From Candidatus Puniceispirillum sp. (GTDB lineage Bacteria; Pseudomonadota; Alphaproteobacteria; Puniceispirillales; Puniceispirillaceae), in contig JAOEUK010000007.1 in the NCBI GenBank assembly GCA_028382965.1, forward strand, positions 62,001 to 126,000: a stretch of 64,000 nt of DNA, read 5' to 3'. Position numbers and translations under genes: made by a program. Positions 52,181 to 64,000 of this stretch are shown here, piece by piece (positions within the stretch are counted from its first letter, which is position 1; each line of letters opens with the position of its first letter). The notes below the pieces were generated by a model. That model was not told the origin of the DNA. It did no database searches and saw nothing but the letters and a program-made list of their open reading frames with translations.

Positions 52181-52207
52181 TATATTTTTTTGAAAAAAAC
52201 ATAATGA

Positions 52208-52232
52208 TTAGCTGGTCTAGCTAACATTTTTT
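52208..52232 (+). terminator. Intrinsic terminator after mnmA
   Basis: A perfect 6-bp stem TTAGCT/AGCTAA with a 5-base loop, followed within two bases by a run of six T residues. It lies 28 bp after the mnmA stop in the right direction. Confidence 0.7.
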
Positions 52233-52279
52233 GTTTCTGCAAGGCTAACATTTAAGATTTCTGCACCGTTAATATAGGT

Positions 52280-52495
52280 ATGATGAATGATCTGCTGCAA
52301 ATTCAAAAAGGTTTGAGGTCTTCGCGAAGTGACCCTAGTCCTCGTCACGGAAATGATGACGAATTGGAAGAAGATGAGCTTGAACATTTCACACCAGACT
52401 GCTTTGTTTTGCCGGTTAATTACAACCTCTACAATAAAGGCTATACAACCAAGCATTGGTTGAGTGTTTTTAGGGGGTTAGAAGCCGGTAGTTAA
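52280..52495 (+). CDS. Small acidic hypothetical protein
   Basis: A 71-residue frame, not recognised. It starts MMNDLLQIQKG and contains a strongly acidic stretch (NDDELEEDELEHF) followed by an aromatic end. It lies between the mnmA terminator and a sigma-54 site, on the same strand. The ribosome-binding site is poor (AGGT directly before the ATG). Real coding is plausible from its clear acidic pattern but not certain; the opposite-strand frame here is hydrophobic and less likely. Confidence 0.4.
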   Translation: MMNDLLQIQKGLRSSRSDPSPRHGNDDELEEDELEHFTPDCFVLPVNYNLYNKGYTTKHWLSVFRGLEAGS

Positions 52496-52608
52496 TCTCC
52501 TGTTGCCCAATACTTTGTGAGGTTACCGTTGTTGTTTGATTTTTAATTCTTTTGTGGAGGGATGCTAGCTTATCCGCTGGTTGTCAGGCAGTATGAAGGT
52601 CTTAGACT

Positions 52609-52624
52609 TGGCAAGAGTTTTGCA
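52609..52624 (+). promoter_or_regulatory. Sigma-54 (RpoN) promoter, -24/-12
   Basis: TGGCAAGAGTTTTGCA has GG and GC exactly 10 bases apart and matches the TGGCAC-N5-TTGCA consensus except at one -24 base. It lies 40 bp upstream of the coiled-coil membrane protein gene at 52664, in the right direction. Confidence 0.72.
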
Positions 52625-52663
52625 AACCTACCCTGAGATGATGTTTATACAAAGTAGAAATCG

Positions 52664-53332
52664 ATGAGTCAGCAAGCTTCGCTTATAAAGCTCAAAGAAA
52701 AAATTGAAGCTGCAAAACGCAGTCTTTCTGAAATGCCATCATTGGACGGTGCTAACGGGATCGGTGATGGTGCTACTGCGATTATTAATTCTGATCCCAG
52801 TTCAAAGGAAAATGCTGCACTCATTAACATCCAAAAAACGGATGCTCCAAAAATATTTGATAAAACGGTTGTCGATTTGCCAAATATTGTTGCGCTAGAA
52901 GCGGCAAAAATGAATGAGATAAATCGTAGAGAAACGACTTTTGATAAAGCAAAAAATCCTTTTAAGGAATTTCATTTTTTTCACCGAAAAGAGCAGCTAG
53001 CAGACACTCCAATTACAGTGCTAAATGGTCAGGCTAATAAAAATGGGAATATAGTTGTTGAAGGCAATGCTGATGATTGTTTGTTTGACGATTTCGATCG
53101 TCGGTTGAAAGCAATTGAAATTGATGTTGCTCAAAATTGTTTGCATATAGATGAACTCATTGAACTTTCTTCTGGGATTTCTTCTCCTCAAGCGCCTGTT
53201 TCTGCGCCTAAGTCTATGCGCCGTCTTCTTAGGCGCTATGTGTTTTGGTTTGTGATTGGCTGCTTAGCAATGGGTTGGTTTGCGCTGACACCGTCAGGCC
53301 ATATTGGAATCAAGTATTTATTAACCTTATAA
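52664..53332 (+). CDS. Coiled-coil protein with one C-terminal membrane segment, sigma-54 linked
   Basis: A 222-residue protein I do not recognise. Its N-terminus (SLIKLKEKIEAAKRSLSEM) is an amphipathic helix, the middle is low in complexity, and residues 140-170 (DDFDRRLKAIEIDVAQN) look helical. A basic stretch (MRRLLRRY) leads into one membrane segment at about 190-209. The same order (IEAA-x-x-x-L helix, linker, helix, basic stretch, membrane segment) occurs in the 174-residue protein at 54439-54963. A sigma-54 site lies 40 bp upstream. It is probably a membrane-anchored flagellar accessory protein, by context only. Confidence 0.8.
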   Translation: MSQQASLIKLKEKIEAAKRSLSEMPSLDGANGIGDGATAIINSDPSSKENAALINIQKTDAPKIFDKTVVDLPNIVALEAAKMNEINRRETTFDKAKNPFKEFHFFHRKEQLADTPITVLNGQANKNGNIVVEGNADDCLFDDFDRRLKAIEIDVAQNCLHIDELIELSSGISSPQAPVSAPKSMRRLLRRYVFWFVIGCLAMGWFALTPSGHIGIKYLLTL

Positions 53333-53338
53333 TAAAAA

Positions 53339-53414
53339 TTATCCACAGACTAAATATATTCTTAACCTACTATTCATATTAATAAAATCATTATAAAAGA
53401 ATAACTTATGCACA
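53339..53414. promoter_or_regulatory. Pair of DnaA boxes in an AT-rich spacer
   Basis: TTATCCACA at 53339-53347 (perfect) and TTATGCACA at 53406-53414 (matches TTATNCACA), both on the plus strand, with about 58 AT-rich bases between. They lie in the 118-bp spacer upstream of the 89-residue gene. Two boxes are too few for an origin, and the neighbouring genes are not origin genes, so a regulatory role is more likely. Confidence 0.5.
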
Positions 53415-53450
53415 GGTTTTATAAAATATAATAAGATTGGTAAAGGTTGC

Positions 53451-53720
53451 ATGTTAAGCTCTACGTCAGGAGAGCACTCTTTCCCTCATAAATTATCATT
53501 TGATCTGGGGATTGATGAAGCGTTTATGGTAAAACGGGAGAAAAGTGGCATAAAGCGGTCTGTTATTTTCCCTAAAAATATTCAAATCTTCAATGTACCG
53601 GAATTTCAAAGGCAAGTTTCGTACCTATTTGATTCATTAAATATTAATATTGAGTTTCGGGTTACACGGCACAATCGGCTGGAGATGCGCTGGTCATTTC
53701 CACAAGAGGTGATTGAATAA
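53451..53720 (+). CDS. Hypothetical protein, 89 residues
   Basis: A small soluble protein that I do not recognise. No membrane segment or signal peptide is visible; it is mixed charged and aromatic (KLSFDLGIDEAFMVKREK, RVTRHNRLEMRWSFPQ). It lies between a coiled-coil membrane protein gene and the fliL-like gene, which is convergent. Two DnaA boxes lie upstream. TTGG and GGTTGC occur just before the ATG, but the GG-GC spacing is 8, not 10, so no sigma-54 site is assigned. Confidence 0.6.
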   Translation: MLSSTSGEHSFPHKLSFDLGIDEAFMVKREKSGIKRSVIFPKNIQIFNVPEFQRQVSYLFDSLNINIEFRVTRHNRLEMRWSFPQEVIE

Positions 53721-53829
53721 AATCAAAGCAAGTCCAAGACTTGGTCAGAAATTTCGCCTGAAGAAAGTGTAGATTTTGAGACTTTAATTCTTTCTTTCGC
53801 AGGTTCTAGTCATTGAATCAGTTTTCGTT

Positions 53830-54432
53830 TTAATTAGTTCCACTGAGTACAAATTTGATGAGGTGTAAATCTGTGATTGCTAACGGGTCTCCATCTAACG
53901 ATCTAACAACAAGTTTCACTTGCTCTAGTAGCTCTTTTGAAAGTTTTTGACGTTTTTTGACTGTGTTAACATCGGTTAGTTTTTGTTCTGAGAGTTTGAA
54001 ATTAATCACTGAACGGAGTTTTGGGTTAGATGTGTTCAACATTTCGATGATCTCTTCACTATCCATTGCATCTCCATATGTAGCGATTGCAATTTCTAGT
54101 GTTAGCATGCCTTTTCCACTTGCGAGGTTGGTGATAAATGGAAGTGGAAATGTGTAGTAAGTGTGCTTAGAAAAATCGAACTGGCTTTTTGATGGTTTTA
54201 ACTGTTGTTCTTCAGTTTTTTCTGCGTCCAGGGTTTTATCATTATCTGCCTTTGATTTTGCTTTTTCCATGATGGTTTGGATGTCGTCTTGTACTGGTTC
54301 CGTTGACGTTAAAGTTTTATACCCGATAAAAAAAAGTCCTAAAACACCGACCACACAAGTGCCAATTGAGATTGGCAGAATTAACTTTGGTAATTTGTCT
54401 GGATTTGTTTTTTGAGTTTCGTCAGCAGCCAT
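53830..54432 (-). CDS. fliL: FliL-like flagellar basal body-associated protein
   Basis: A 200-residue single-pass membrane protein. The membrane segment is at about residues 16-37, followed by an acidic linker and a C-terminal domain. Family-like features are HTYYTFPLPFITNLASGKG followed by MLTLEIAIATYG, then PKLRSVINFKL. FliL surrounds the stator units and supports motor torque. The C-terminal end differs from E. coli FliL, so the assignment is moderate. It follows the coiled-coil gene by six bases on the same strand and shares its sigma-54 promoter. Confidence 0.72.
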   Translation of the reverse strand: MAADETQKTNPDKLPKLILPISIGTCVVGVLGLFFIGYKTLTSTEPVQDDIQTIMEKAKSKADNDKTLDAEKTEEQQLKPSKSQFDFSKHTYYTFPLPFITNLASGKGMLTLEIAIATYGDAMDSEEIIEMLNTSNPKLRSVINFKLSEQKLTDVNTVKKRQKLSKELLEQVKLVVRSLDGDPLAITDLHLIKFVLSGTN

Positions 54433-54438
54433 AATAAG

Positions 54439-54963
54439 TTAACCAATCCATTTGCTTATGAACTTACCAAGCTGATTAATCCATAATTGTAATAAATCTT
54501 GTTTTGTCGTTAAAAAATAAATGATACTAAAAATTAAGCACATAATGATTGAAAAGGTAATTGTGATGCTGCTTAGATAGCGACGAAAGCTTAAATTTAC
54601 AGCAATTTTTTCTGGCGCATCGCTTCTTTTTTTAATATCACCTTGAAAATCAGTTATTTCACGAATTTTATTAAGCAGTTTATGCAAGTCCTTCTGACTC
54701 GCTAATAATTTTTCCTCTAAGCTTGTAATACGGGCATCTATTCCAGCAGCATCTGACTCAAATGTTTTTTTACTGGTTTGTTTTCTGATATTTGCAGTAG
54801 AGTTGGAAGCCTGCTCTTGAGATAAAACTTGTTGGGTAGCCTGTTCTGCTGGGAATTTTTTGGCTATCTGAGTTGATACTGAAACTGTAGATGTCTTTGA
54901 TTCAGTTCTAGCAAGAGCAGATCTTGCGGCTTCTATTTGTGCTTTTAAGCTTGGATTTGCCAT
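54439..54963 (-). CDS. Coiled-coil protein with one C-terminal membrane segment, operon with fliL
   Basis: A 174-residue protein I do not recognise. Residues 1-20 (ANPSLKAQIEAARSALART) form an amphipathic helix like that at the start of the 52664 protein. A Ser/Thr/Gln-rich linker, a coiled coil (about 72-105, ITSLEEKLLASQKDLHKLL) and a membrane segment (about 130-152) follow, with a short amphipathic tail. It is the first gene of a two-gene operon with the FliL-like gene, under a sigma-54 promoter 82 bp upstream. A flagellar motor or stator accessory role is an inference from context. Confidence 0.8.
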   Translation of the reverse strand: MANPSLKAQIEAARSALARTESKTSTVSVSTQIAKKFPAEQATQQVLSQEQASNSTANIRKQTSKKTFESDAAGIDARITSLEEKLLASQKDLHKLLNKIREITDFQGDIKKRSDAPEKIAVNLSFRRYLSSITITFSIIMCLIFSIIYFLTTKQDLLQLWINQLGKFISKWIG

Positions 54964-55044
54964 CTGCCTGTGCCTTCTTAAGTAATTGTCTGTTTTCTAT
55001 ACCGTTAAAACGAGCAATTTGAACCTCAAATCTAGACCCTTACA

Positions 55045-55060
55045 AGCACTTTTGATGCCA
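55045..55060 (-). promoter_or_regulatory. Sigma-54 (RpoN) promoter, -24/-12
   Basis: On the minus strand TGGCATCAAAAGTGCT, with GG and GC 10 bases apart. It is 82 bp upstream of the coiled-coil gene that is followed by fliL, in the right orientation. Confidence 0.7.
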
Positions 55061-55077
55061 AGCGCGTAAACGAGCTG

Positions 55078-55590
55078 TCAGTAGATTCTGACTGACGTTT
55101 CACCATAATTGTAACCAATAATTTTGCAGGACCGAACCTCACTAAAATTGTGCATTTCTGAATTAATTATTTCGGTCCAGGTGTCTTGTCCTAAACGTTC
55201 TAGTAACCGTTCACTAATTTTTTGAACTGTTTGCGTACACGAACCAAACTCTGTTGGTTTAATACCATTATCCTCGTGCCCGCATTTTGCGCTGCTGTTT
55301 CCAATGATTTCAGCTCGTGTATTAAGCCAATGAACTGAAACTCCACGAACTGCTCGTCGATGTTGGTTATATATTTGCATTTCAAGATTATAGGAAATTA
55401 AGGAAGCTCCTCTTTCATCAGTTCCAAATACTAATTTGATGTCGCATGGGACCTGTTCTCCTTGCAAGTGAACGCCTGCATCTAAAGGATTGATGATTGT
55501 TAAAGCTATTGTCAAAAAGCAAATGATAGAGTTGCGCCGCAGTGCATTATTAAAATTTATTGAAAAAATTTCTAAAAATTTTGAAATCAT
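55078..55590 (-). CDS. Exported hypothetical protein with four cysteines
   Basis: A 170-residue protein I do not recognise. A hydrophobic stretch at about residues 21-36 after a basic RR looks like a signal peptide with a long n-region, with cleavage near DAG-VH. The mature part has four cysteines (VPCDI, AKCGH, GSCTQ, RSCKI), which suggests two disulfides in the periplasm. The mature domain contains YNLEMQIYNQHRRAV and WLNTRAEIIG. It lies upstream of the fliL operon on the same strand, but a sigma-54 site separates them. Confidence 0.65.
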   Translation of the reverse strand: MISKFLEIFSINFNNALRRNSIICFLTIALTIINPLDAGVHLQGEQVPCDIKLVFGTDERGASLISYNLEMQIYNQHRRAVRGVSVHWLNTRAEIIGNSSAKCGHEDNGIKPTEFGSCTQTVQKISERLLERLGQDTWTEIINSEMHNFSEVRSCKIIGYNYGETSVRIY

Positions 55591-55613
55591 GTGGATGCCC
55601 TACTTAATGTTAT

Positions 55614-55629
55614 TGGCATAGTACCTGCA
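55614..55629 (+). promoter_or_regulatory. Candidate sigma-54 (RpoN) promoter
   Basis: TGGCATAGTACCTGCA, with GG and GC 10 bases apart. It points at the 63-residue coiled-coil gene, with a leader of about 118 bases. A sigma-70-like pair (TTGACA at 55672-55677, GCTAAT at 55695-55700, 17-base spacer) also lies before that gene, so this site is less certain than the other five. Confidence 0.5.
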
Positions 55630-55747
55630 AGAGCATTACTGAAACTATAACTATATGATGTTTAGCAAAAGTTGACACAATGATCTACCTTACTGCTAAT
55701 AATGTGCAGGGTTGGCTAGTATTTTAATTTAAAAAGGAACGCTTTAA

Positions 55748-55939
55748 ATGGCAGAAGAAGAAGAGATCAGTGAAGCTGATTTAAGTGGACGCCTGGCGAC
55801 TGTTCTTGAAGAAATTCGTGATGTCATGGAAAAGCGTAAACAGCGTATTGAGGAATTGCGTCAGGAAATTACTGATATTGAAAATGACAATGACGATTTA
55901 GAAAAAACTATCAGTGAGTTATTGGACAGCTTCGGTTAA
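55748..55939 (+). CDS. Small acidic coiled-coil protein
   Basis: A 63-residue protein I do not recognise. It starts MAEEEEISEADLS, then has a continuous heptad-like helix (VLEEIRDVMEKRKQRIEELR and onward) to the end, with no membrane segment. AAAAAGGAAC is upstream of the ATG, a good ribosome-binding site. Candidate sigma-54 and sigma-70 promoters precede it. Its stop overlaps the end of the convergent 61-residue gene by four bases. It is possibly a small flagellar chaperone or adaptor. Confidence 0.7.
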   Translation: MAEEEEISEADLSGRLATVLEEIRDVMEKRKQRIEELRQEITDIENDNDDLEKTISELLDSFG

Positions 55940-56121
55940 TTTTCTTGGCCTTTGGTAACAGCATGTCCTTGAATTGCGGTCGCGCCCAAAACCTCTGTTA
56001 AGTCAGAATTTTCAATAATAAAACGTCGAAGTTTTTCATCAACTAAAGCCTCAGCTGCCTCATTTGAGGCTGCTTCAACTTCCAAAAAACCATCAATAAT
56101 CCACTGTACCTTTACTTTCAT
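55936..56121 (-). CDS. Hypothetical protein, 61 residues, last gene of a three-gene operon
   Basis: A small protein I do not recognise (MKVKVQWIIDGFLEVEAASN, then EALVDEKLRRFI). The pattern is a beta-hairpin followed by a helix. Its ATG overlaps the stop of the Sel1-repeat gene (ATGA), so it is translationally coupled to it. It ends overlapping the convergent coiled-coil gene by four bases. Confidence 0.65.
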   Translation of the reverse strand: MKVKVQWIIDGFLEVEAASNEAAEALVDEKLRRFIIENSDLTEVLGATAIQGHAVTKGQEN

Positions 56122-56792
56122 TTCTTGTCTCCTTTACCTTCTCTCGGTAATGGTTTGAAGTTGTACGTGCTAAAAAGTTCTTGGGATTTACTTTGAAACG
56201 TTACAAGATTCTTATTGTCAAGCTGAGACTCAGAGTCGTCTCGCTCATCTTTAGTATTAGGCAGATCCAGTGCAACCGCTATAGAATACCATATATAGGC
56301 ATTGCCGTAATCTGGTTCCTTTAAGATCGTCAAATGATAATTCGCGTATTGTGGAATTGCTTGTAAATCTTTTTCGTCTATTCGTGCTTGCAAAGCCTCA
56401 CCAACTCGCGCACGAACCTGATCAGCCATCTTTTCAGGCAATAAATCCATGATAGTGTCCGCAAGGTTTTCCGCATCTTCTATGCCACCTAACTGGGCTT
56501 GCCATGACCAGTAAAGCGCGTCAGCGTAATTGCGTGGTCGCCCTTTACCAGCATTTAGTAATACTGCAAGATTGTATTGAGCATCATGGCGAGCCGCTTT
56601 TGCCTGTGCTTTAAAAAGAGTTATGGCATGAACATAATTTTTATCTTTGACGGCCTGTACAGCCTCCTTAAATGCTGCATTTTCAATTTTGACTTTTGTA
56701 TTGCTAGCAAACAAAGGGAGGGGAAAGAGAAAAATAGCAATAATCACAAATCGAACAAAGAACTGATTGGCAAACGTAAAATTTTTAATCAT
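56118..56792 (-). CDS. Exported Sel1-repeat/TPR-like protein
   Basis: A 224-residue protein with a signal peptide (about residues 1-30, FPLPLFAS-NT). Sel1-type repeats follow: KNYVHAITLFKAQAKAARHD, AQYNLAVLLNAGKGRPRNYADALYW and DYGNAYIWYSIAVALDLP. Sel1 proteins are scaffolds for protein complexes, here in the periplasm. The start overlaps the stop of the 128-residue gene (ATGA) and the stop overlaps the next start, so all three genes are coupled. No specific function can be assigned. Confidence 0.82.
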   Translation of the reverse strand: MIKNFTFANQFFVRFVIIAIFLFPLPLFASNTKVKIENAAFKEAVQAVKDKNYVHAITLFKAQAKAARHDAQYNLAVLLNAGKGRPRNYADALYWSWQAQLGGIEDAENLADTIMDLLPEKMADQVRARVGEALQARIDEKDLQAIPQYANYHLTILKEPDYGNAYIWYSIAVALDLPNTKDERDDSESQLDNKNLVTFQSKSQELFSTYNFKPLPREGKGDKK

Positions 56793-57175
56793 CGTCCTGC
56801 CATCATGACCAATTGAAGGTATAATACCCGCATTTTAAATTTTGAATTTGGACGTTGCTCATAAACCACAATTCGTGGCCGATTGGCATTTTGGCGTTGG
56901 AACTCTATAGACATATTTTCTGGTAAGTAGATGCCGTGCGTCTCTAATGTGCCGGAGGGATCACTGTCAAAAGCCTGATGGAAATCTATATCAATCCATG
57001 TTCGTGCTAACGCTTTGCCAAGAATCTCTGGTAAGAACTCGCGCACATCATCGCGGCCAGTGAAGTGTTTTTCACCATCAAAAAGTGAGAAGGGCTGGCT
57101 ACTTTTGTCTTTGTTGGTGGTTGCTGGAAGTCTCTTTTCAAAGGGTACCAGCGATGTATTTTGTTTGTGGGGCAT
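56789..57175 (-). CDS. Protein with a segment resembling a nitrile-hydratase-like leader (NHLP) domain
   Basis: A 128-residue protein, first gene of a coupled three-gene operon. Residues 48-92 read EILGKALARTWIDIDFHQAF then DSDPSGTLETHGIYLPENM, the spacing of nitrile hydratase alpha/NHLP leaders (A-x-x-W-x-D-x-x-F, D-P-x-x-x-L-x-x-x-G-I-x-L-P-E). The N-terminal 45 residues are polar. The C-terminus (RPRIVVYEQRPN and on) is short and has no Cys or Ser/Thr-rich core peptide. No YcaO or radical SAM modification enzyme is seen in the window. The likeness is by eye only; a fold-level relic without RiPP function is quite possible. Confidence 0.6.
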   Translation of the reverse strand: MPHKQNTSLVPFEKRLPATTNKDKSSQPFSLFDGEKHFTGRDDVREFLPEILGKALARTWIDIDFHQAFDSDPSGTLETHGIYLPENMSIEFQRQNANRPRIVVYEQRPNSKFKMRVLYLQLVMMAGR

Positions 57176-57316
57176 CGTCTACTTTCTTCAATTGCCTAGT
57201 TAATATGATGCATTAGCATCTGCTAAACAAGTTGAATCTCAGATGTTATTCAGCTCACGAGTCTCTTGTCACTCTTTGTTTTATTTTTTTGTGAACACTA
57301 AGTAGTTCAATGTCTT

Positions 57317-57332
57317 TGGCATAAAACTTGCT
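57317..57332 (+). promoter_or_regulatory. Sigma-54 (RpoN) promoter, -24/-12
   Basis: TGGCATAAAACTTGCT matches the consensus except one base of the -24 element and has GG-N10-GC. It lies 37 bp upstream of the flagellar rod/hook gene, in the right direction. Confidence 0.8.
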
Positions 57333-57368
57333 GCATTATCATCAAATAATATTGTAGGTTACAAAATC

Positions 57369-58172
57369 ATGATTTCAGTAATTCGTAGTGGTATGGATGC
57401 AGCACTCCAGAATTTGGACGTGACATCTAACAACATAGCTAATGCACGGACTACAGGCTTTAAGAAAAGAGAAGCTAATTTCGTTGATATGTATAGCACC
57501 GCCATTAAAACGCCAACAGGCGGTAGAATTGGTGTTGGTGTTAGAACCCCAGAAATCAGGATGATGCAAACGCAAGGAAACTTAAAGAATACTGATCAAG
57601 CCCTTGACCTCGCCATTGAAGGCAATGGTATGTTTGCGCTTCGCAATGAAGCAAACCCAAACTCTGATTTGTATACTCGTGATGGTTCTTTTGGCCTGAA
57701 TACGGATGGTGTAATAGTTAATAGAGAAGGGTACTCTCTTCTATCAGCAGGGGGCCAACCGATAAATGTCCCGATGACATCTGCTGGAGTTTTGACGGCT
57801 AACGGATTTCAAGAGTTTAATCCTCCTGCAAAATTGACCTCTATCGCGATTATTAAAGATGGCAGTATTGAGGCGACCTACGGCGGAACTAATATAGTTA
57901 CGGTAGGAAAAGTTGGCCTGGCTTCATTTGGTGATCCAAATAGGTTAACGCCCGTTGGTGCCAACCTCTTCCGTTCAAGTAAAGCGTCAGGAGCAGCAGT
58001 TTTAGCTGAGGCTACTATTGAAGGTCGCGGTAAAATCCATTCGGGTGCTTTGGAAATGGCTAACACTGACATTACCGAAGAGTTGTCAAATATGATTAGA
58101 GCACAACAAGCTTTTTCAGGGTCTTCCCGTCTCCTTCAAGCTGAGACAGAAATGGTACGAAAGTTTGTTTAG
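57369..58172 (+). CDS. Flagellar hook-basal body protein (FlgE/FlgF/FlgG family)
   Basis: A 267-residue rod/hook family protein. The N-terminal motif SGMDAALQNLDVTSNNIANA and TTGFKKREANFVDMY are the family signature. The centre has TQGNLKNTDQALDLAIEGNG and YTRDGSFGLNTDG, and the C-terminus has GALEMANTDITEELSNMI followed by an RAQQAF-type end. The length and GVGV segment fit FlgF or FlgG, which form the basal body rod; I cannot separate the two. A sigma-54 promoter lies 37 bp upstream. It is convergent with the fliA operon's last gene, 15 bp apart. Confidence 0.9.
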   Translation: MISVIRSGMDAALQNLDVTSNNIANARTTGFKKREANFVDMYSTAIKTPTGGRIGVGVRTPEIRMMQTQGNLKNTDQALDLAIEGNGMFALRNEANPNSDLYTRDGSFGLNTDGVIVNREGYSLLSAGGQPINVPMTSAGVLTANGFQEFNPPAKLTSIAIIKDGSIEATYGGTNIVTVGKVGLASFGDPNRLTPVGANLFRSSKASGAAVLAEATIEGRGKIHSGALEMANTDITEELSNMIRAQQAFSGSSRLLQAETEMVRKFV

Positions 58173-58187
58173 GGTTTGGTAAGTCTA

Positions 58188-58601
58188 TTACTTTAATGTC
58201 AAAGACCAATTTAAACTAGTAATTGAAGCGTCGGTTGGCTCTTCAATTATCAAGCAACCGTTGCTATCCAAAACCAGTGTTGTATTTAATATCATTTTTG
58301 CTGTTCCTGCTCTTTCAGCCGTTCGAGCAATTTGTTTAATTAGTTTGTCAAAATGACGCCGTGGAATTTCCACACTTGCTTCAATCACATTACGGTTTAA
58401 AGGGATGTGTAATTGCCCATTAGGGCTTATTTCTGAATCGTTGGGATTTATCACCATCAAGCATGTGCCGCGGGCGATAGTTATTAGTGATAATGTAATT
58501 AAAAGGCTTTCAGTGCCTGCCCAAGACTGGATTTGTTGTTCAGCGCCACGAATCCGCATTTCAATAGTGTCAATATGCTCAAAAAATTCGGGCTTTGTCA
58601 T
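58188..58601 (-). CDS. Hypothetical protein, last gene of the flhA-flhF-flhG-fliA operon
   Basis: A 137-residue soluble protein that I do not recognise. It has an N-terminal helix (EFFEHIDTIEMRIRGAEQQI) and a beta-rich middle (LMVINPNDSEI, MILNTTLVLDSNGCLIIEEP). It starts four bases after the fliA stop, so it belongs to the flagellar operon. The position suggests an anti-sigma or flagellar assembly role, but no FlgM-like sequence is visible and this is speculation. Confidence 0.65.
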   Translation of the reverse strand: MTKPEFFEHIDTIEMRIRGAEQQIQSWAGTESLLITLSLITIARGTCLMVINPNDSEISPNGQLHIPLNRNVIEASVEIPRRHFDKLIKQIARTAERAGTAKMILNTTLVLDSNGCLIIEEPTDASITSLNWSLTLK

Positions 58602-58605
58602 GTTT

Positions 58606-59328
58606 TTATATTGCTTGTAGGTTTTTCATGTTGTCACGAAGGTTTGCAATTGCTGCTTTTTTAATTTGTGAGACTCTGCCACTGGAAACATCGAGGACTT
58701 CAGCAATTTCCATGACATTGAGTTCTTCCACATAGTACAATTGGATAACGAGGGCTTCATTGCCAGAAAGCTCCTGTAAAGCAAGTTTCAGCACTTCTTT
58801 AAGGTCTTTGCTGTTCAGCAAATCTTCAGGTGAGTCATCAGCAGAGGCAAACCAGATTGAATATTGATCATATACGCTATCAAGAGACTCATGGGAGTTA
58901 GCTTGAAACGCTCTTTCCCATTCTCTAAATTCAGGCTCACTTATCCCCATAGCATTGCTTATTTCCACCGACGTTGGCTCGTGGAAGAGTTTCCCCCGGA
59001 GGTCTGATACTACTTTATTGTAACGCTTTTTCATCGTTATTGTGGTTCGACATAAATTAGAAGCTTTTCTCAAGTGATCAATAATGTCACCTTTGATTCT
59101 TATTGAGGCGTAAGTTGCAAAGGTTGCACCTTCTTTCAAAGTGTATTGCTGTGCTGCATTTATAAGAGCGGCAAACCCGATCTGGATTATGTCTTCAATC
59201 TCAATGGCATGACTTGCTCGGCCATAGATGTGCCAGGCAATTTTCTTTACCAGATTGGTGTGTGACTTGATGACCTCGTCAACATCCATTTTTTGATCAG
59301 CATAATGGTCGCGTTTTACTGAACTCAT
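58606..59328 (-). CDS. fliA: Flagellar sigma factor FliA (sigma-28)
   Basis: A 240-residue sigma-70 family factor without region 1, with the length and layout of FliA. Region 2 shows DIIQIGFAALINAAQQY and FATYASIRIKGDIIDHLRK. Region 3 has EPTSVEISNAMGISEPEF. Region 4 has the helix-turn-helix VMEIAEVLDVSSGRVSQIKK. It directs late flagellar genes such as flagellin. Its start overlaps the flhG stop by four bases (ATGA), so it is coupled. The genome thus seems to use both sigma-54 and FliA for flagella. Confidence 0.93.
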   Translation of the reverse strand: MSSVKRDHYADQKMDVDEVIKSHTNLVKKIAWHIYGRASHAIEIEDIIQIGFAALINAAQQYTLKEGATFATYASIRIKGDIIDHLRKASNLCRTTITMKKRYNKVVSDLRGKLFHEPTSVEISNAMGISEPEFREWERAFQANSHESLDSVYDQYSIWFASADDSPEDLLNSKDLKEVLKLALQELSGNEALVIQLYYVEELNVMEIAEVLDVSSGRVSQIKKAAIANLRDNMKNLQAI

Positions 59329-60113
59329 TTTCGACCTCCGTTATCAAAAAATTTTAAAGATTTACTGGAATGAATGGGCACAGTTATCAAAGTCTTGGCC
59401 ATCTCTTTAAAACAAGCTGAAGGCACTGAATTGGGCTGGCTAAGCGTTACTGGGTTTCGTTGAGTGACAGCGTGTTTTATTTCTTTTGAATATGGTATCA
59501 TCCCAGCGTAATGCAAATTCACGTCCAAAAAGCGTATTGCTATTTCACGAAATTTTTCAAAGCTATTTTTTGCCATACTATTAGTTTCAGCCATATTTAC
59601 GGCAACTGCAAAGTTTTTTACTCTGGCCTCCAAATTTGCTGCTTTAATTAAAGCGTAAGCATCTAGAAAACTTGTTGGCTCCTCTACCAATACAACCAAG
59701 GAGATGTCTGATGCGCTGGTGAAAAATAATGTGCTCTCTGCAGCACCAGCCGGGCAGTCCACAATCAAATAATCAATATTTCTACTAAGATTTGAAATCC
59801 CTGATAAAATTTGATGACGCCGCTTATTATCTAAATTTAAAAGCTCGGTTAATCCTGAACCCCCTGATAAAATACTCAAATTATCACTAAATCTCGTAAT
59901 ACTTTCTTCCATTGTGCATGTGCCATCTAAAAAATCTGCCACTGATTTACTTGGTTTTGTTCCAAGTAATACATGCACGTTTGCAAGGCCAAAGTCGGCA
60001 TCAAAAAGAAGCACATTCCTTCCGGACTGTCCAAGTGAGATTGCAAGGTTGACTGCGGTGTTTGTTTTTCCGACACCGCCTTTGCCACTAGTTACTGCAA
60101 TTGAAAGTGTCAT
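59325..60113 (-). CDS. flhG: FlhG (MinD-like ATPase), flagellar number regulator
   Basis: A 262-residue ParA/MinD family ATPase. The deviant Walker A motif SGKGGVGKTNTAVNLA has Lys11 and Lys16; LLFDADFGLANVHVLLG and IVDCPAGAAEST follow. FlhG limits the number and sets the place of polar flagella, acting with FlhF. It lies between flhF and fliA in the usual order. The short C-terminal extension (SSKSLKFFDNGG) is less conserved and the amphipathic MinD membrane helix is not obvious. Confidence 0.93.
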   Translation of the reverse strand: MTLSIAVTSGKGGVGKTNTAVNLAISLGQSGRNVLLFDADFGLANVHVLLGTKPSKSVADFLDGTCTMEESITRFSDNLSILSGGSGLTELLNLDNKRRHQILSGISNLSRNIDYLIVDCPAGAAESTLFFTSASDISLVVLVEEPTSFLDAYALIKAANLEARVKNFAVAVNMAETNSMAKNSFEKFREIAIRFLDVNLHYAGMIPYSKEIKHAVTQRNPVTLSQPNSVPSACFKEMAKTLITVPIHSSKSLKFFDNGGRK

Positions 60114-60115
60114 TT

Positions 60116-61261
60116 TTAATTTTCTGACTTATGAGTAAAAGGTGAATTTGTAACTTCAGAATTCAGGTTCTCTTGCAGATATTGCATCAATACACTCTCT
60201 GATGCAAATATTGGGGCGTCTACGATAGACTTTGAGGCTGAAAAAAGGCCAATTTTAGCATCAACTGCTGCAAGGGAAGAAAACTCGGTGGTTGTTACGT
60301 CACATTCATCAAGTTTTGTCAGCGCAACTATTGGGTCAAGGAATTTTAATTTATTCATTGTTAATTCAATCATGTTTGAGCTAGTACTAGCTGGGATTGT
60401 TGCAATCACGCTTAAATCTTGAGGATCAAAACCCTGATATATTTCTGCTAGCTTGGGTATTGCTTGTCCAATTGGCAATGCTAAATCAAAAACCATTATT
60501 TCGTTGGGTTTCATTTTTTTGAAATCTGATGAAGGCGTATTAGTGCCAACTGTATAAACCTGGCTGTTGAGCAACCTAGCAAAATCCTGCAATCGATTAA
60601 ATTCACTTTGTCCTTCTGATCTCATTTCAACTGTTATCACCTCTTTGTTTGGACTCGCTTCTTTTAGCATGGCAGTAAGTTTGCCAACTAGTGTTGTTCT
60701 ACCAGTGCCAGATTGACCTGTTACAAAAATCAGTTTTTTTGACAAAAGCTTTTCACTGTTCGTATATGTCAAATGCGAAGTCAAATCGGTTAAAAAGGCC
60801 TCACAGCCGTCATGATAAGCCAAACCCAGATAGGAACTCTTGAAGTCATTAAGAATTTGGGATGAAAATCCAGCTTGCTGAAGAATAACCCTGCTATTTG
60901 CGGATAAATTCTGATTGGTACCATTTAAATCTGTGATGAAGAGTCCGTTCAGCATGTCTTGAAATTCAATCATCTGTTTACGTAAACTATTTAGTTCGCT
61001 GACATGCGGTGTTGATTGTTCGGGCACAATTAAAGGTAGTTGTTTGCCTGGAGCATTGATGATCTTATCAGAAAAAATATTTGCAAATTTATTTTTGGCA
61101 GTTGAGTTTTGCTGACTTAGTGTTGAGCCGGCAGACGCCTCCATAACAACTTTTCCATTTCTTTTAGTTGTTGATAAAATCACTGCATCTGGTCCGAGTT
61201 TACTAACAATCTCATCCATAGCGGCTGCGCTATCTATTGCTTGTACCGTTAATTTTGACAT
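60116..61261 (-). CDS. flhF: FlhF-like flagellar GTPase with degenerate nucleotide site
   Basis: A 381-residue SRP-type GTPase, identified by order (flhA-flhF-flhG) and by sequence: an N-terminal basic start, a linker, and a C-terminal NG-like domain. The P-loop reads TGQSGTGRTTLVGK (181-194), with arginine 188 in place of the invariant lysine. The region where G3 (DTAGR) belongs reads VFDLALPIG (257-265). G4 is kept as TKLDE (315-319). The N-terminal half is short. It may bind GTP weakly or act only as a scaffold; functional homologues elsewhere control polar flagellar placement. It lies two bases upstream of flhG. Confidence 0.88.
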   Translation of the reverse strand: MSKLTVQAIDSAAAMDEIVSKLGPDAVILSTTKRNGKVVMEASAGSTLSQQNSTAKNKFANIFSDKIINAPGKQLPLIVPEQSTPHVSELNSLRKQMIEFQDMLNGLFITDLNGTNQNLSANSRVILQQAGFSSQILNDFKSSYLGLAYHDGCEAFLTDLTSHLTYTNSEKLLSKKLIFVTGQSGTGRTTLVGKLTAMLKEASPNKEVITVEMRSEGQSEFNRLQDFARLLNSQVYTVGTNTPSSDFKKMKPNEIMVFDLALPIGQAIPKLAEIYQGFDPQDLSVIATIPASTSSNMIELTMNKLKFLDPIVALTKLDECDVTTTEFSSLAAVDAKIGLFSASKSIVDAPIFASESVLMQYLQENLNSEVTNSPFTHKSEN

Positions 61262-61301
61262 TAGTTAAAATCCTTTTTTTAATGCAGCAAAAAATGCTTT
61301 G

Positions 61302-63422
61302 TTAATCTTTGATCTCTAATTTTGGATCTTCATCATTGCTAATGGTGGCAATAACATTAATTTTACGATTGTCCGGTAATTCTGTGAAACCAAAGACAAA
61401 CAAGTCATCTATATGATTTCTCAGTAACACAGATAATTGACGCCTGATTTGCGGTGCAACAATTAGCACGGCCTGTTTCCCATCAGCCAAAGATTTTTCA
61501 CTGGTTTGCGATATAGACTTGATTAATCGTTGTGCTAGGTTTGCATCAAGAAGTAAGCTACCATCAGTACTTTGGTTAGCTATTGAAATCAGCATATGTT
61601 CAAGTTCTGAGCTGAGCGTAATCACTGGAAGTGCTTGATTTAAGGGTGCTATTTGTTGGATAAGAAGACCTGCCAAACTTGGGCGCAAAGACTCAGCTAT
61701 CTCTACTACACCTAGGTTTTGTCCAGACATGTTTGCCAACGCTTCAAGAATTTTTCGAAGATCACTAATTGGCACTCTTTCTTTAAGTAACTCGCAAAGG
61801 ATCCCAGTTAAGGTGTGTAGTGGAACTAACTTTGGAACTACGGACTCCACTAAACTAGGTGAAGTCTGTGACAAATTATCAAGCAATTTTTGTACATCGT
61901 CCTGCCCCACTAATTCAGAGGCAAATTTATACATTATTTGTGACAAATGTGTTGCGAGAACTGATTCGGGCTCAATAACTACATATCCATTATTTTCGGC
62001 TTCAGACTCTTTGTGCCGTTCAATCCAAATTGCATCCATATTGAAACTTGGATCTTTGACTTCTATGCCAGAAATTTTTATGTTTGTCTCATCCCCTGGA
62101 ATAGCCATCTTGCAGTTTGGATAAATGACATCTTCTCCTACAATGGTTTGACCAACCCTTACTCGATATTCATTTGCACCCAATGACATGTCATCACGGA
62201 CCCGAACAGCAGGCATTACAAAGCCAAGTGACTTAGATACTTGTTTCCTGATGCTAGTGATTCGATTGACCAGAGGACCCCCTGTATCCTCATCTACCAT
62301 TTCGATGAGTCCGTAGCCAAGCTGAACTGATAAAGGTGAGTTATCAGTCACATCAGTTAAATCAATTTGATCTGGTTTTCTTTCTAATTCATCTTCAGCG
62401 TTTTCTCCCATCTCATCTGGTTTATTTTCAGCGGTCAGCTCTTTGCGCCGCATGATAAACCCTGCCACTCCAGCAACCGCGGCAGCTACTAAAAAGAGTG
62501 CGTTTGGCATGCCTGGAACTAATCCCATAAGGAGTAACACGGCTGAAACAGGGATCCATGCGCGTGAAAGCGAAATTTGTGTGCCAATATGGGATGCCAT
62601 GTTTTGAGTTGATGAGACGCGTGTAACAATTATTGCTGTGGCAATAGCTAGCATTAGTGAAGGAATTTGGGCCACTAACCCATCACCAACAGATAGTAAA
62701 ATATATGTTTCTGCTGCTTGTCCAAAATCTAGGTTGTGCTGTGAAACGCCAATAATCAAACCACCAATTATGTTGATTGCGAGAATTAAGATGCCTGCTA
62801 TTGCATCACCTTTTACAAATTTTGAAGCACCATCCATTGCGCCATAAAAATCCGCCTCCCGTGAAACTTCTTCCCGTCGTTCTTTAGCTTCTTCATTGGT
62901 TAGCACGCCTGCGTTGAGGTCGGCATCAATTGCCATTTGTTTGCCTGGCATGGCGTCAAGAGTAAACCGTGCTGAAACTTCGGCCACTCGTCCTGCACCC
63001 TTTGTAATAACTACCAAATTAATGATCACTAATATTACAAAGACAAAAATTCCAACAACATAATTGCCAGCAATTATAAACTGACCAAAGGCACTAATAA
63101 CCTGGCCTGCTGCTTCTGACCCCTCTTGGCCTTTACCAAGGATGATACGGGTTGAAGCAACATTGAGGCCGAGCCTTAACACTGTTGCAATTAGGAGTAG
63201 GCTTGGAAAACTTGAAAAATCAAGTGGTTTGAATGTGTGAAGGGCTACCATCAATACTAATATTGACAACAAAATATTCGAGACAAAAAACGTATCAAGT
63301 AAAAAAGTTGGTAATGGCAATACCATCATGGCTACCAAAGCCAAAATTCCTGTTGATAGAATTAGTGCTGAAATAGTGGAGCTTAGGCCCGTCATTCCAA
63401 ATTTTTTTAGTGTCATAATCAT
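61302..63422 (-). CDS. flhA: FlhA, flagellar type III export gate protein
   Basis: A protein of about 706 residues, usual for FlhA. Eight membrane segments lie in the N-terminal 330 residues, with LLIATVLRLGLNVASTRIIL, FIMRRK and the cytoplasmic loop VAEVSARFTLDAMPGKQMAI (FHIPEP signature). The C-terminal cytoplasmic domain (about 360-700) docks export substrates. Starts at GTG 63431, ATG 63422 and ATG 63416 are all possible; I took ATG 63422. It heads the flhA-flhF-flhG-fliA operon, with a sigma-54 promoter about 160 bp upstream. Confidence 0.95.
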   Translation of the reverse strand: MIMTLKKFGMTGLSSTISALILSTGILALVAMMVLPLPTFLLDTFFVSNILLSILVLMVALHTFKPLDFSSFPSLLLIATVLRLGLNVASTRIILGKGQEGSEAAGQVISAFGQFIIAGNYVVGIFVFVILVIINLVVITKGAGRVAEVSARFTLDAMPGKQMAIDADLNAGVLTNEEAKERREEVSREADFYGAMDGASKFVKGDAIAGILILAINIIGGLIIGVSQHNLDFGQAAETYILLSVGDGLVAQIPSLMLAIATAIIVTRVSSTQNMASHIGTQISLSRAWIPVSAVLLLMGLVPGMPNALFLVAAAVAGVAGFIMRRKELTAENKPDEMGENAEDELERKPDQIDLTDVTDNSPLSVQLGYGLIEMVDEDTGGPLVNRITSIRKQVSKSLGFVMPAVRVRDDMSLGANEYRVRVGQTIVGEDVIYPNCKMAIPGDETNIKISGIEVKDPSFNMDAIWIERHKESEAENNGYVVIEPESVLATHLSQIMYKFASELVGQDDVQKLLDNLSQTSPSLVESVVPKLVPLHTLTGILCELLKERVPISDLRKILEALANMSGQNLGVVEIAESLRPSLAGLLIQQIAPLNQALPVITLSSELEHMLISIANQSTDGSLLLDANLAQRLIKSISQTSEKSLADGKQAVLIVAPQIRRQLSVLLRNHIDDLFVFGFTELPDNRKINVIATISNDEDPKLEIKD

Positions 63423-63583
63423 GACATTCACTCTGAACTTGTGGGTTGATTAAATTTAAAGTCGACAAAAACAAGCTGTATACTAATAAGACTAATTAAT
63501 TTAAAGATGATAAAAAACAACAATTTAATCCCTTTTCTTTTGAACTCGAATCTAAATTTTTGTACGTTCAAGTCACCTTAAAA

Positions 63584-63599
63584 GGCAATTTTTGTGCCA
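63584..63599 (-). promoter_or_regulatory. Sigma-54 (RpoN) promoter of flhA operon
   Basis: On the minus strand TGGCACAAAAATTGCC, a near-perfect match to TGGCAC-N5-TTGC. It is about 160 bp upstream of flhA in the right direction. The element is also an inverted repeat (GGCA...TGCC). Confidence 0.8.
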
Positions 63600-63740
63600 A
63601 TTTTCTTAGTAAGTTTTGATTGATTAAAATGTTACAAATTTTGGGTTGGTTCAAATGGGCTGATAATGTAGCAAAAAGCCAAGAAAGGTTAAGTCAACAA
63701 TGATTGGGCTGTGAGCAGTCAATTTTCTGGAGAATCTGGT

Positions 63741-63756
63741 TGGCACAGAAGATGCA
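63741..63756 (+). promoter_or_regulatory. Sigma-54 (RpoN) promoter of the lipoprotein gene
   Basis: TGGCACAGAAGATGCA matches TGGCAC-N5-TTGCA with one mismatch and has GG-N10-GC. It lies 50 bp upstream of the ATG at 63807, in the right direction. Confidence 0.8.
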
Positions 63757-63806
63757 TAAAGGGGTGTGATCAAAAAAATGACGCGCGAGCACTTCAGGAG
63801 CTTTTT

Positions 63807-64000
63807 ATGAACAATGTATCATTAACATCAATGAGTTTAATCACAGGCATGGCTCTTTTGACTGGTTGTGGGCACATTTACAAACAACCAGAAGCGAGTG
63901 CCATAGCTGCTGTAGAAGCATCACAAACCCAAACGCTCGTTAATATAAAAGATGTGTTTGACACGACTTCAGAAAACATTCCTACGGTAACGGCGGTCGG
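63807..64000 (+). CDS. Partial lipoprotein gene, sigma-54 linked (3' end outside window)
   Basis: The visible 64 residues begin MNNVSLTSMSLITGMALLTG followed by Cys, a clear lipobox (LLTGC). The following CGHIYKQPEAS is the start of the mature part, then Ala/Thr-rich sequence. AGGAG lies six bases upstream of the ATG. Divergent from flhA and under a sigma-54 site, it is probably a flagellar outer-membrane or assembly lipoprotein. FlgH (L ring) is a candidate, but the visible part does not show a FlgH signature, so no symbol is given. Confidence 0.75.
   Translation, partial: MNNVSLTSMSLITGMALLTGCGHIYKQPEASAIAAVEASQTQTLVNIKDVFDTTSENIPTVTAV

Follow-up and report, generated by a model that had tools for sequence, protein, structure and literature searches.

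Caulobacter-type flagella carry sigma-54 promoters on their rod and hook genes. In the polar cascades of Vibrio and Pseudomonas (FlrA/FleQ, sigma-54, FliA), sigma-54 acts before sigma-28 and the genes flhA, flhF, flhG and fliA follow one another in that order; the locus described here resembles them in gene order and probably also in the succession of sigma factors. The Fla1 flagellum of Rhodobacter sphaeroides is thought to have been acquired from a gammaproteobacterium. Its hierarchy is set out in part of PMC7277832: FleQ drives fleT-fliEFGHIJ, FleQ and FleT together drive class III genes including fliA and flgM, and FliA drives fliC. The same part of that source gives FlgP as an essential outer-membrane lipoprotein of Fla1, and FlgT as an H-ring protein both there and in Vibrio. 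We analyzed a 64,000-nucleotide stretch (the window) of Candidatus Puniceispirillum sp., a SAR116-type alphaproteobacterium of the family of Candidatus Puniceispirillum marinum. The window is contig JAOEUK010000007.1 (C37), positions 62001-126000, of a 2.38 Mb genome in 39 contigs (GCA_028382965.1). A preliminary description had read six matches to the sigma-54 promoter core as the boundaries of a flagellar regulon. Judged from sequence, the six are very probably real promoter signals. We consider it highly probable that they are RpoN -24/-12 promoters, opened by an activator pair encoded beside fliE, in a hierarchy of the Fla1 type.

The motif scored was the exact 15-mer TGGCA-N7-TGC with GG-N10-GC spacing. 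All six reported motifs are present with this spacing, although both minus-strand coordinates had been given one base off (corrected in Table 1). All are intergenic and oriented toward a start codon, as described. The distance from the end of the 15-mer to the start codon is 41 bases for A222, 83 for B174, 120 for S63, 38 for flgF, 154 for flhA (GTG at 63431) and 52 for flgP (ATG at 63807). The stretch 52181-63806 holds five matches in 1,508 mapped intergenic bases, against an equal-base expectation of 0.046 and a mean of 0.044 (maximum 1) in 500 dinucleotide shuffles of those bases; the earlier chance estimate of about 0.03 was a fair one. The sixth site, that of flgP, was hidden from this count by a spurious GTG extension in the open reading frame (ORF) map, the likely start being the ATG. 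Elsewhere in the window, the mapped intergenic sequence (3,949 bases) has no match (shuffle mean 0.108). Over the whole window, 14 exact matches were found where 5.1 were expected, a number reached in 0/100 shuffles. The remaining eight lie inside long open frames, taken as coding, and the motif is therefore no proof by itself.

Table 1. Predicted promoters, genes and further motif matches; positions are those of the window unless a contig is given (aa, amino acids).
Feature	Position	Strand	Remarks
Sigma-54 promoter of A222	52609..52623	+	exact core TGGCAAGAGTTTTGC
Sigma-54 promoter of B174-fliL	55046..55060	-	exact core TGGCATCAAAAGTGC
Sigma-54 promoter of S63	55614..55628	+	exact core TGGCATAGTACCTGC
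Sigma-54 promoter of flgF	57317..57331	+	exact core TGGCATAAAACTTGC
Sigma-54 promoter of flhA-flhF-flhG-fliA-E137	63585..63599	-	exact core TGGCACAAAAATTGC
Sigma-54 promoter of flgP-flgT-LysM-flgA-flgM-(flgN)-DUF2802	63741..63755	+	exact core TGGCACAGAAGATGC
fliL-like gene, second in B174 operon	53830..54432	-	PF03748, 1.5e-10
flgF-type rod gene	57369..58172	+	PF22692, PF06429, PF00460
fliA-like sigma-28 gene	58606..59328	-	sigma-70 regions 2 and 4; region 3 below cut-off
flhG-like MinD/ParA ATPase gene	59325..60113	-	profile match
flhF-like GTPase gene	60116..61261	-	TIGR03499 48.4 bits, below equivalog cut-off 174.15
flhA	61302..63431	-	PF00771, 1.7e-241
FlgP-like LPP20 lipoprotein gene (start only; runs past window)	63807..64000	+	PF02169 (LPP20) 1.3e-8
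A222, 222-aa protein	52664..53332	+	N-terminal LKEKIEAAKRSL motif, C-terminal hydrophobic stretch; no Pfam match
x89, small conserved protein between A222 and fliL	53451..53720	+	no Pfam match
B174, gene before fliL	54439..54963	-	N-terminal LKAQIEAARSAL motif, C-terminal hydrophobic stretch
C170, protein that looks exported by eye	55078..55590	-	no Pfam match; no own sigma-54 core
S63, 63-aa coiled-coil-like protein	55748..55939	+	94% identical within genus
t61, small conserved protein	55942..56121	-	kept beside flagellar genes in relatives
Sel1-repeat-like protein	56118..56792	-	PF08238 below cut-off; conserved beside flagellar genes
D128, conserved protein in flagellar gene neighbourhoods	56789..57175	-	no sigma-54 core as a rule
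E137, last gene of flhA operon	58188..58601	-	follows fliA in most relatives examined
Other exact matches, in open frames	15661, 23771/23773 (palindromic pair), 26789, 29295, 56473(-), 60670/60672 (palindromic pair, flhF-like gene)		
Strict sites before non-flagellar genes (names by eye)	C23:301		TPR protein
	C35:670		kinase-like gene
	C35:57624		88-aa gene
	C36:33497		149-aa gene

The decisive sequence evidence is conservation of the sites across relatives. About 260 bases upstream of each gene were scored in this genome, counted with the rest, and in 26 relatives whose loci had already been collected (21 of the same family, themselves related to each other, and 5 more distant). The exact core was present upstream of flhA in 25/25, of flgP in 25/25 and of flgB in 13/13 cases, and upstream of B174 in 4/4, all in the genus. 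In the four most distant genomes, FlhA is 59-64% identical and G+C content ranges from 0.30 to 0.64, so conservation there does not reflect mere closeness. The A222 core was found in three of the five genomes scored (G014 and G027 among them), or four of five with G003, which was scored apart because its BLAST match is partial. Genes not expected to have a sigma-54 promoter of their own gave 1/34 (C170 0/8, FliL 0/10, D128 1/16).

Three of the targets had already been taken as flagellar, and the profile matches of the flgF-type rod gene, the flhA operon and the fliL operon bear this out (Table 1). The remaining targets had been called genes of unknown type and probably flagellar. For the operon at 63741 this is now clear, the name FlgP resting on the LPP20 match plus gene position. 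It continues beyond the window, where its second gene encodes an FlgT_N protein (PF16548, 1.3e-11). Next come a protein whose FimV/LysM match is below cut-off, then FlgA and FlgM, a small protein placed where FlgN would be (itself without a match) and a DUF2802-like protein, again below cut-off. The other three, A222, B174 and S63, keep flagellar neighbours in other genera or relatives and are probably part of the flagellar machinery, as far as gene context can tell.

The machinery to use such promoters is encoded elsewhere in the genome. rpoN is present on contig C23 (RpoN family matches occur in 4/14 control genomes), and four proteins strongly match the sigma-54 activator domain. Two further matches to that domain are weak (E about 1e-6) and carry no meaning, since the family matches in 14/14 control genomes. 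The preliminary description had suggested looking for rpoN and for a flagellar enhancer-binding protein. Two of the strong activators lie back to back on C23. A 424-aa protein without a helix-turn-helix (HTH) match directly precedes fliE-fliF-fliG-fliH-fliI-fliJ, and the divergent 362-aa protein carries HTH_8; no receiver domain was found in either at E 0.01. Homologues of both (58% and 54%) stand in the same divergent order in a Rhodobacteraceae metagenome-assembled genome (MAG), with TGGCATGGTGTATGC before the first. On C23 and C16, flagellar genes outside the domain scan carry presumed names, given from their order and sequence look. On these terms, exact sites outside the window lie upstream of flgB, flgG, fliO, fliK and a 129-aa gene followed by an M23 peptidase gene. 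Another stands at the start of a 268-aa frame beside the flhB operon; this frame more likely begins at its second methionine. With rpoN, the fliE operon and the flgB, flgG, fliK and fliO sites on other contigs, the whole regulon is spread over at least three contigs, and the window therefore does not delimit it, contrary to what had been proposed. A site weight matrix was trained on 45 ortholog sites, five of them from this genome; matrix scores for those five are circular because they were in the training set. Two long frames were also seen, a hook-type open frame of 1,261 aa (L101:6741-10526) and a flagellin open frame of 1,014 aa (L102:4066-7110).

Specificity was assessed genome-wide with the strict 16-mer TGGCAYRNNNNNTGCW, satisfied by three of the six window sites (55614, 57317 and 63741). 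It has 40 matches in the genome (36 outside the window and 4 in it, all inspected) against 1 for the reversed pattern. By the automatic ORF map, which defines coding here, 29 lie in open frames and 11 are intergenic. Two of the matches counted as coding, L057 (beside rpoN) and L090, fall within the opening codons of GTG/TTG frames that are too long, and may in fact lie ahead of a gene, which could add to either side. Ten of the 11 intergenic matches lie at or just upstream of a start codon. Flagellar clusters, an estimated 70 kb or about 3% of the genome, hold six of these ten: flgG, the 129-aa gene, the 268-aa frame, S63, flgF and flgP. The genome-based checks that the preliminary description had named as able to refute it came out in its favour, and its reading of the sites holds for the most part.

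In the hierarchy that these data suggest, RNA polymerase with RpoN would use the six -24/-12 promoters. A FleQ-like activator with a DNA-binding domain would first switch on a FleT-like activator together with fliE to fliJ. Both activators would then switch on the middle genes, comprising flhA-flhF-flhG-fliA, flgP-flgT-flgA-flgM, flgF, B174-fliL, S63 and A222. FliA from the flhA operon would be held by FlgM until the hook is complete and, once freed, would drive late genes such as flagellin. The sites, their positions and conservation, rpoN, the activators and the gene content are observed; transcription from the sites and the assignment of activators to targets are inferred, and the sequence of steps is taken from R. 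sphaeroides. The likeness to Fla1 extends to two sigma-54 activators, one ahead of fliE and the genes that follow it, to fliA and flgM under sigma-54 control, here by promoter position and gene order, and to the encoded FlgT and FlgP-like proteins. The proposal that sigma-54 and sigma-28 act in one cascade holds for its first step by position, fliA lying in the flhA operon (flhA, flhF-like, flhG-like, fliA-like, E137) and flgM in the flgP operon. Its second step is suggestive only. Two of the three flagellin genes on contig C19 are preceded by TAA-N15/16-GTCGTTA, and none of the three has an intergenic TGGCA-N7-TGC in its available upstream sequence, which for one of them runs only about 150 bases to the contig end.

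Several observations weigh against this reading. The sigma-28-like pattern is rarer genome-wide than its reversal (9 vs 51), hence the caution over the flagellin genes. The likeness of the activators to FleQ and FleT is one of gene order and domains. Sites before the fleT-like/fliE operon, fliD and motA each depart from the core by one mismatch. No common enhancer word was found near 15 promoters using gapped four-base words; the top candidate (7/15, A/T-only, with 5-6 in five shuffles) was rejected. Four of the ten start-adjacent strict sites precede genes outside the flagellar clusters (Table 1), among which the TPR gene may, as a guess, be a flagellin-modification gene. Conservation is also incomplete. 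The exact core upstream of flgF is kept in 12/18 cases, the A222 core is lacking in G021, one of five genus members, and the S63 core is exact in four of the 10 genomes scored out of its 11, all four being genus members. Among the other S63 regions, two genomes of genus g4 have one mismatch and four others have two or three.

These last figures bear on the alternative that survives best, namely that only the flhA, flgP, flgF and B174-fliL sites work, the S63 and A222 sites being chance or lineage-specific and their genes not flagellar. The restriction of exact S63 cores to the genus fits it, as do the A222 site, the least canonical of the six, and the A222 gene, found in the genus only (5/31 family genomes searched, own included). 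However, in the genus both sites reappear at the corresponding place with altered spacer bases, and A222 and B174 have an N-terminal motif in common. S63 itself was found in 11/31 family genomes, own included (the G030 copy has an internal stop), and 10 of these 11 have FlhA; in the eleventh, G005, flgF-fliA-flhG-flhF lies on the same contig as S63, which ends there. We therefore regard this alternative as unlikely. FlhA occurs in 20/31 family genomes, 10 of them with S63 and 10 without.

A second alternative accepts the sites as sigma-54 promoters and places them in a Caulobacter-type hierarchy (CtrA, FlbD), with FlbD as activator and no sigma-28 step. The host is an alphaproteobacterium and the best NCBIfam match of the 424-aa activator is indeed FlbD. 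The score, however, is 297.6 bits where the equivalog cut-off is 750, this protein has no detected HTH domain, and FliA and FlgM are both encoded. In a quick tree of 52 FlhA rows, five classic alphaproteobacterial FlhA separate from that of the host. The host family groups instead with the Rhodobacteraceae MAG, a MAG of the Paracoccaceae, two further uncultured alphaproteobacteria, one of them named SAR116, and the Octadecabacter arcticus plasmid pOA238_118, in 15 rows with a value of 100 in the Shimodaira-Hasegawa-like approximate likelihood ratio test (SH-aLRT). This Fla1-like group stands beside four sphingomonad rows. The ten family rows do not form one clade, because three Rhodobacterales-type rows fall among them. 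Rossellomorea and Phyllobacterium sit on long branches in this tree, and five of its rows, including the Fla1-like L107 and L109, are unusual in composition. On this evidence a Caulobacter-type hierarchy is very improbable.

The same group offers close parallels to the Fla1-type reading. Plasmid pOA238_118 encodes, as annotated by others, RpoN, an activator before fliE, a divergent activator, FliA, FlgM, FlgT_N and LPP20. Its large Fla1-like flagellar set (NC_020909; L229, L247) lies amid many transposase genes. Compared with Vibrio and Pseudomonas, the host FlhA is 42-48% identical to gamma- and betaproteobacterial matches among the best 80 listed. Among the matches listed, a strict site lies near the flhA start in 10/79 loci, four of these ten being alphaproteobacterial. 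R. sphaeroides differs in having an additional Fla2. In the present genome a single FlhA match and six rod/hook matches were found, giving no sign of a second flagellar set, though a very diverged second FlhA could be missed; in each of the 20 FlhA-bearing family genomes, a profile built from three close rows likewise matched once.

The bare 15-mer has 257 matches genome-wide against 25 for the reversed pattern, and 29 of the first 30, all on contig C1, lie in open frames, with 1 intergenic. A bare match in this genome is thus mostly noise. The roughly tenfold excess of TGGCA-N7-TGC over its reversal, found mostly in open frames in the part examined, is probably word and codon bias. That the six window sites are themselves chance matches to so degenerate a motif has a negligible probability in view of their position, orientation and conservation at the same place in distant relatives for flhA, flgP, flgB and mostly flgF.

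Alongside its Fla1-type genes, the neighbourhood includes S63, A222, B174, C170 and others. Pfam searches at E 0.1 gave no match for A222, x89, C170, D128 or E137, and matches below the curated cut-off only for S63 and B174. The order flgF, D128, Sel1-like, t61, S63, C170, B174 position, fliL, x89 recurs in genera g4, g5 and g10. The B174 motif recurs in proteins at this position in g4, g5 and one g10 genome. Of the three g10 stretches examined, two (L221, L227) yielded no C170, and the protein in the B174 position there lacks the motif. Genera g2, g6, g7 and g8 retain D128, the Sel1-like gene and t61 beside flgF, but S63 and B174 went undetected in them. The flagellar cluster of the Rhodobacteraceae MAG likewise contains D128 and the Sel1-like gene, and the one on the Octadecabacter plasmid contains a Sel1-like homologue.

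A222 and B174 are apparent paralogues: both have the LKxQIExAK motif near the N-terminus and a hydrophobic stretch near the C-terminus. A pattern derived from them matched 14 of 2,400 ORFs in the loci examined, every one an A222 or B174-position protein. Having been written from these proteins, the pattern is no independent test of them; overlapping loci are counted among the matches, as is a truncated copy that lacks the hydrophobic stretch. An AlphaFold model of D128 (mean predicted local distance difference test score, pLDDT, 75) has helices followed by strands. A Foldseek search with it against the PDB returned no match at E 0.001 or better. The top structural match, dihydrolipoamide dehydrogenase (E 0.082, template modelling score 0.21), was rejected. 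A weak lead ranked 16th is a proteusin precursor of a ribosomally synthesized and post-translationally modified peptide (8tb1, E 0.32, probability 0.85). If true, a proteusin-like domain beside flagellar genes would be odd. The predicted structure of E137 was unusable (mean pLDDT 41.6). On C23, the 268-aa frame beside the flhB operon (L074:16157-16963) weakly matches an Octadecabacter protein encoded between rpoN and flhB (24% over 88 aa, E 0.002). A second gene there (L074:15343-16137) weakly matches the other protein of that interval (E 4.5e-9). On this likeness the 268-aa frame is a MotF-like candidate.

We tentatively propose, as a possibility rather than an expectation, that S63, C170, B174 and A222, with D128, the Sel1-like gene, t61 and E137, form an undescribed accessory set of the SAR116 Fla1-type motor. 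B174 and its genus-specific paralogue A222 could each span the membrane once and use the N-terminal LKxQIExAK helix for docking to a motor partner that they share. Together with FliL they could act on the stator, in the manner of MotF in R. sphaeroides.

SAR116 is described in PMC3368413 as a globally ubiquitous marine clade. That paper lists motility as unknown, yet counts 41 genes in the cell-motility class. No word beginning "flagell" occurs in PMC11813361 or PMC3368413, both on cultured SAR116 members. Among the titles listed on SAR116/Puniceispirillum flagella and on alphaproteobacterial FlgT, FlgP and FleQ, none concerned this regulon. A 2025 survey of sigma-54 regulons finds motility genes enriched in alphaproteobacteria too, and its text does not contain "Puniceispirill" (PMC12316311). 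The cascade at this locus is of a known kind, its host appears undescribed, and the locus adds candidate new flagellar genes. No flagellar set other than this Fla1-type one, the type known from R. sphaeroides, was found in this genome. SAR116 gains a concrete predicted circuit of motility control, and the promoter list gives a short, testable set of new flagellar gene candidates in S63, A222, B174 and E137.

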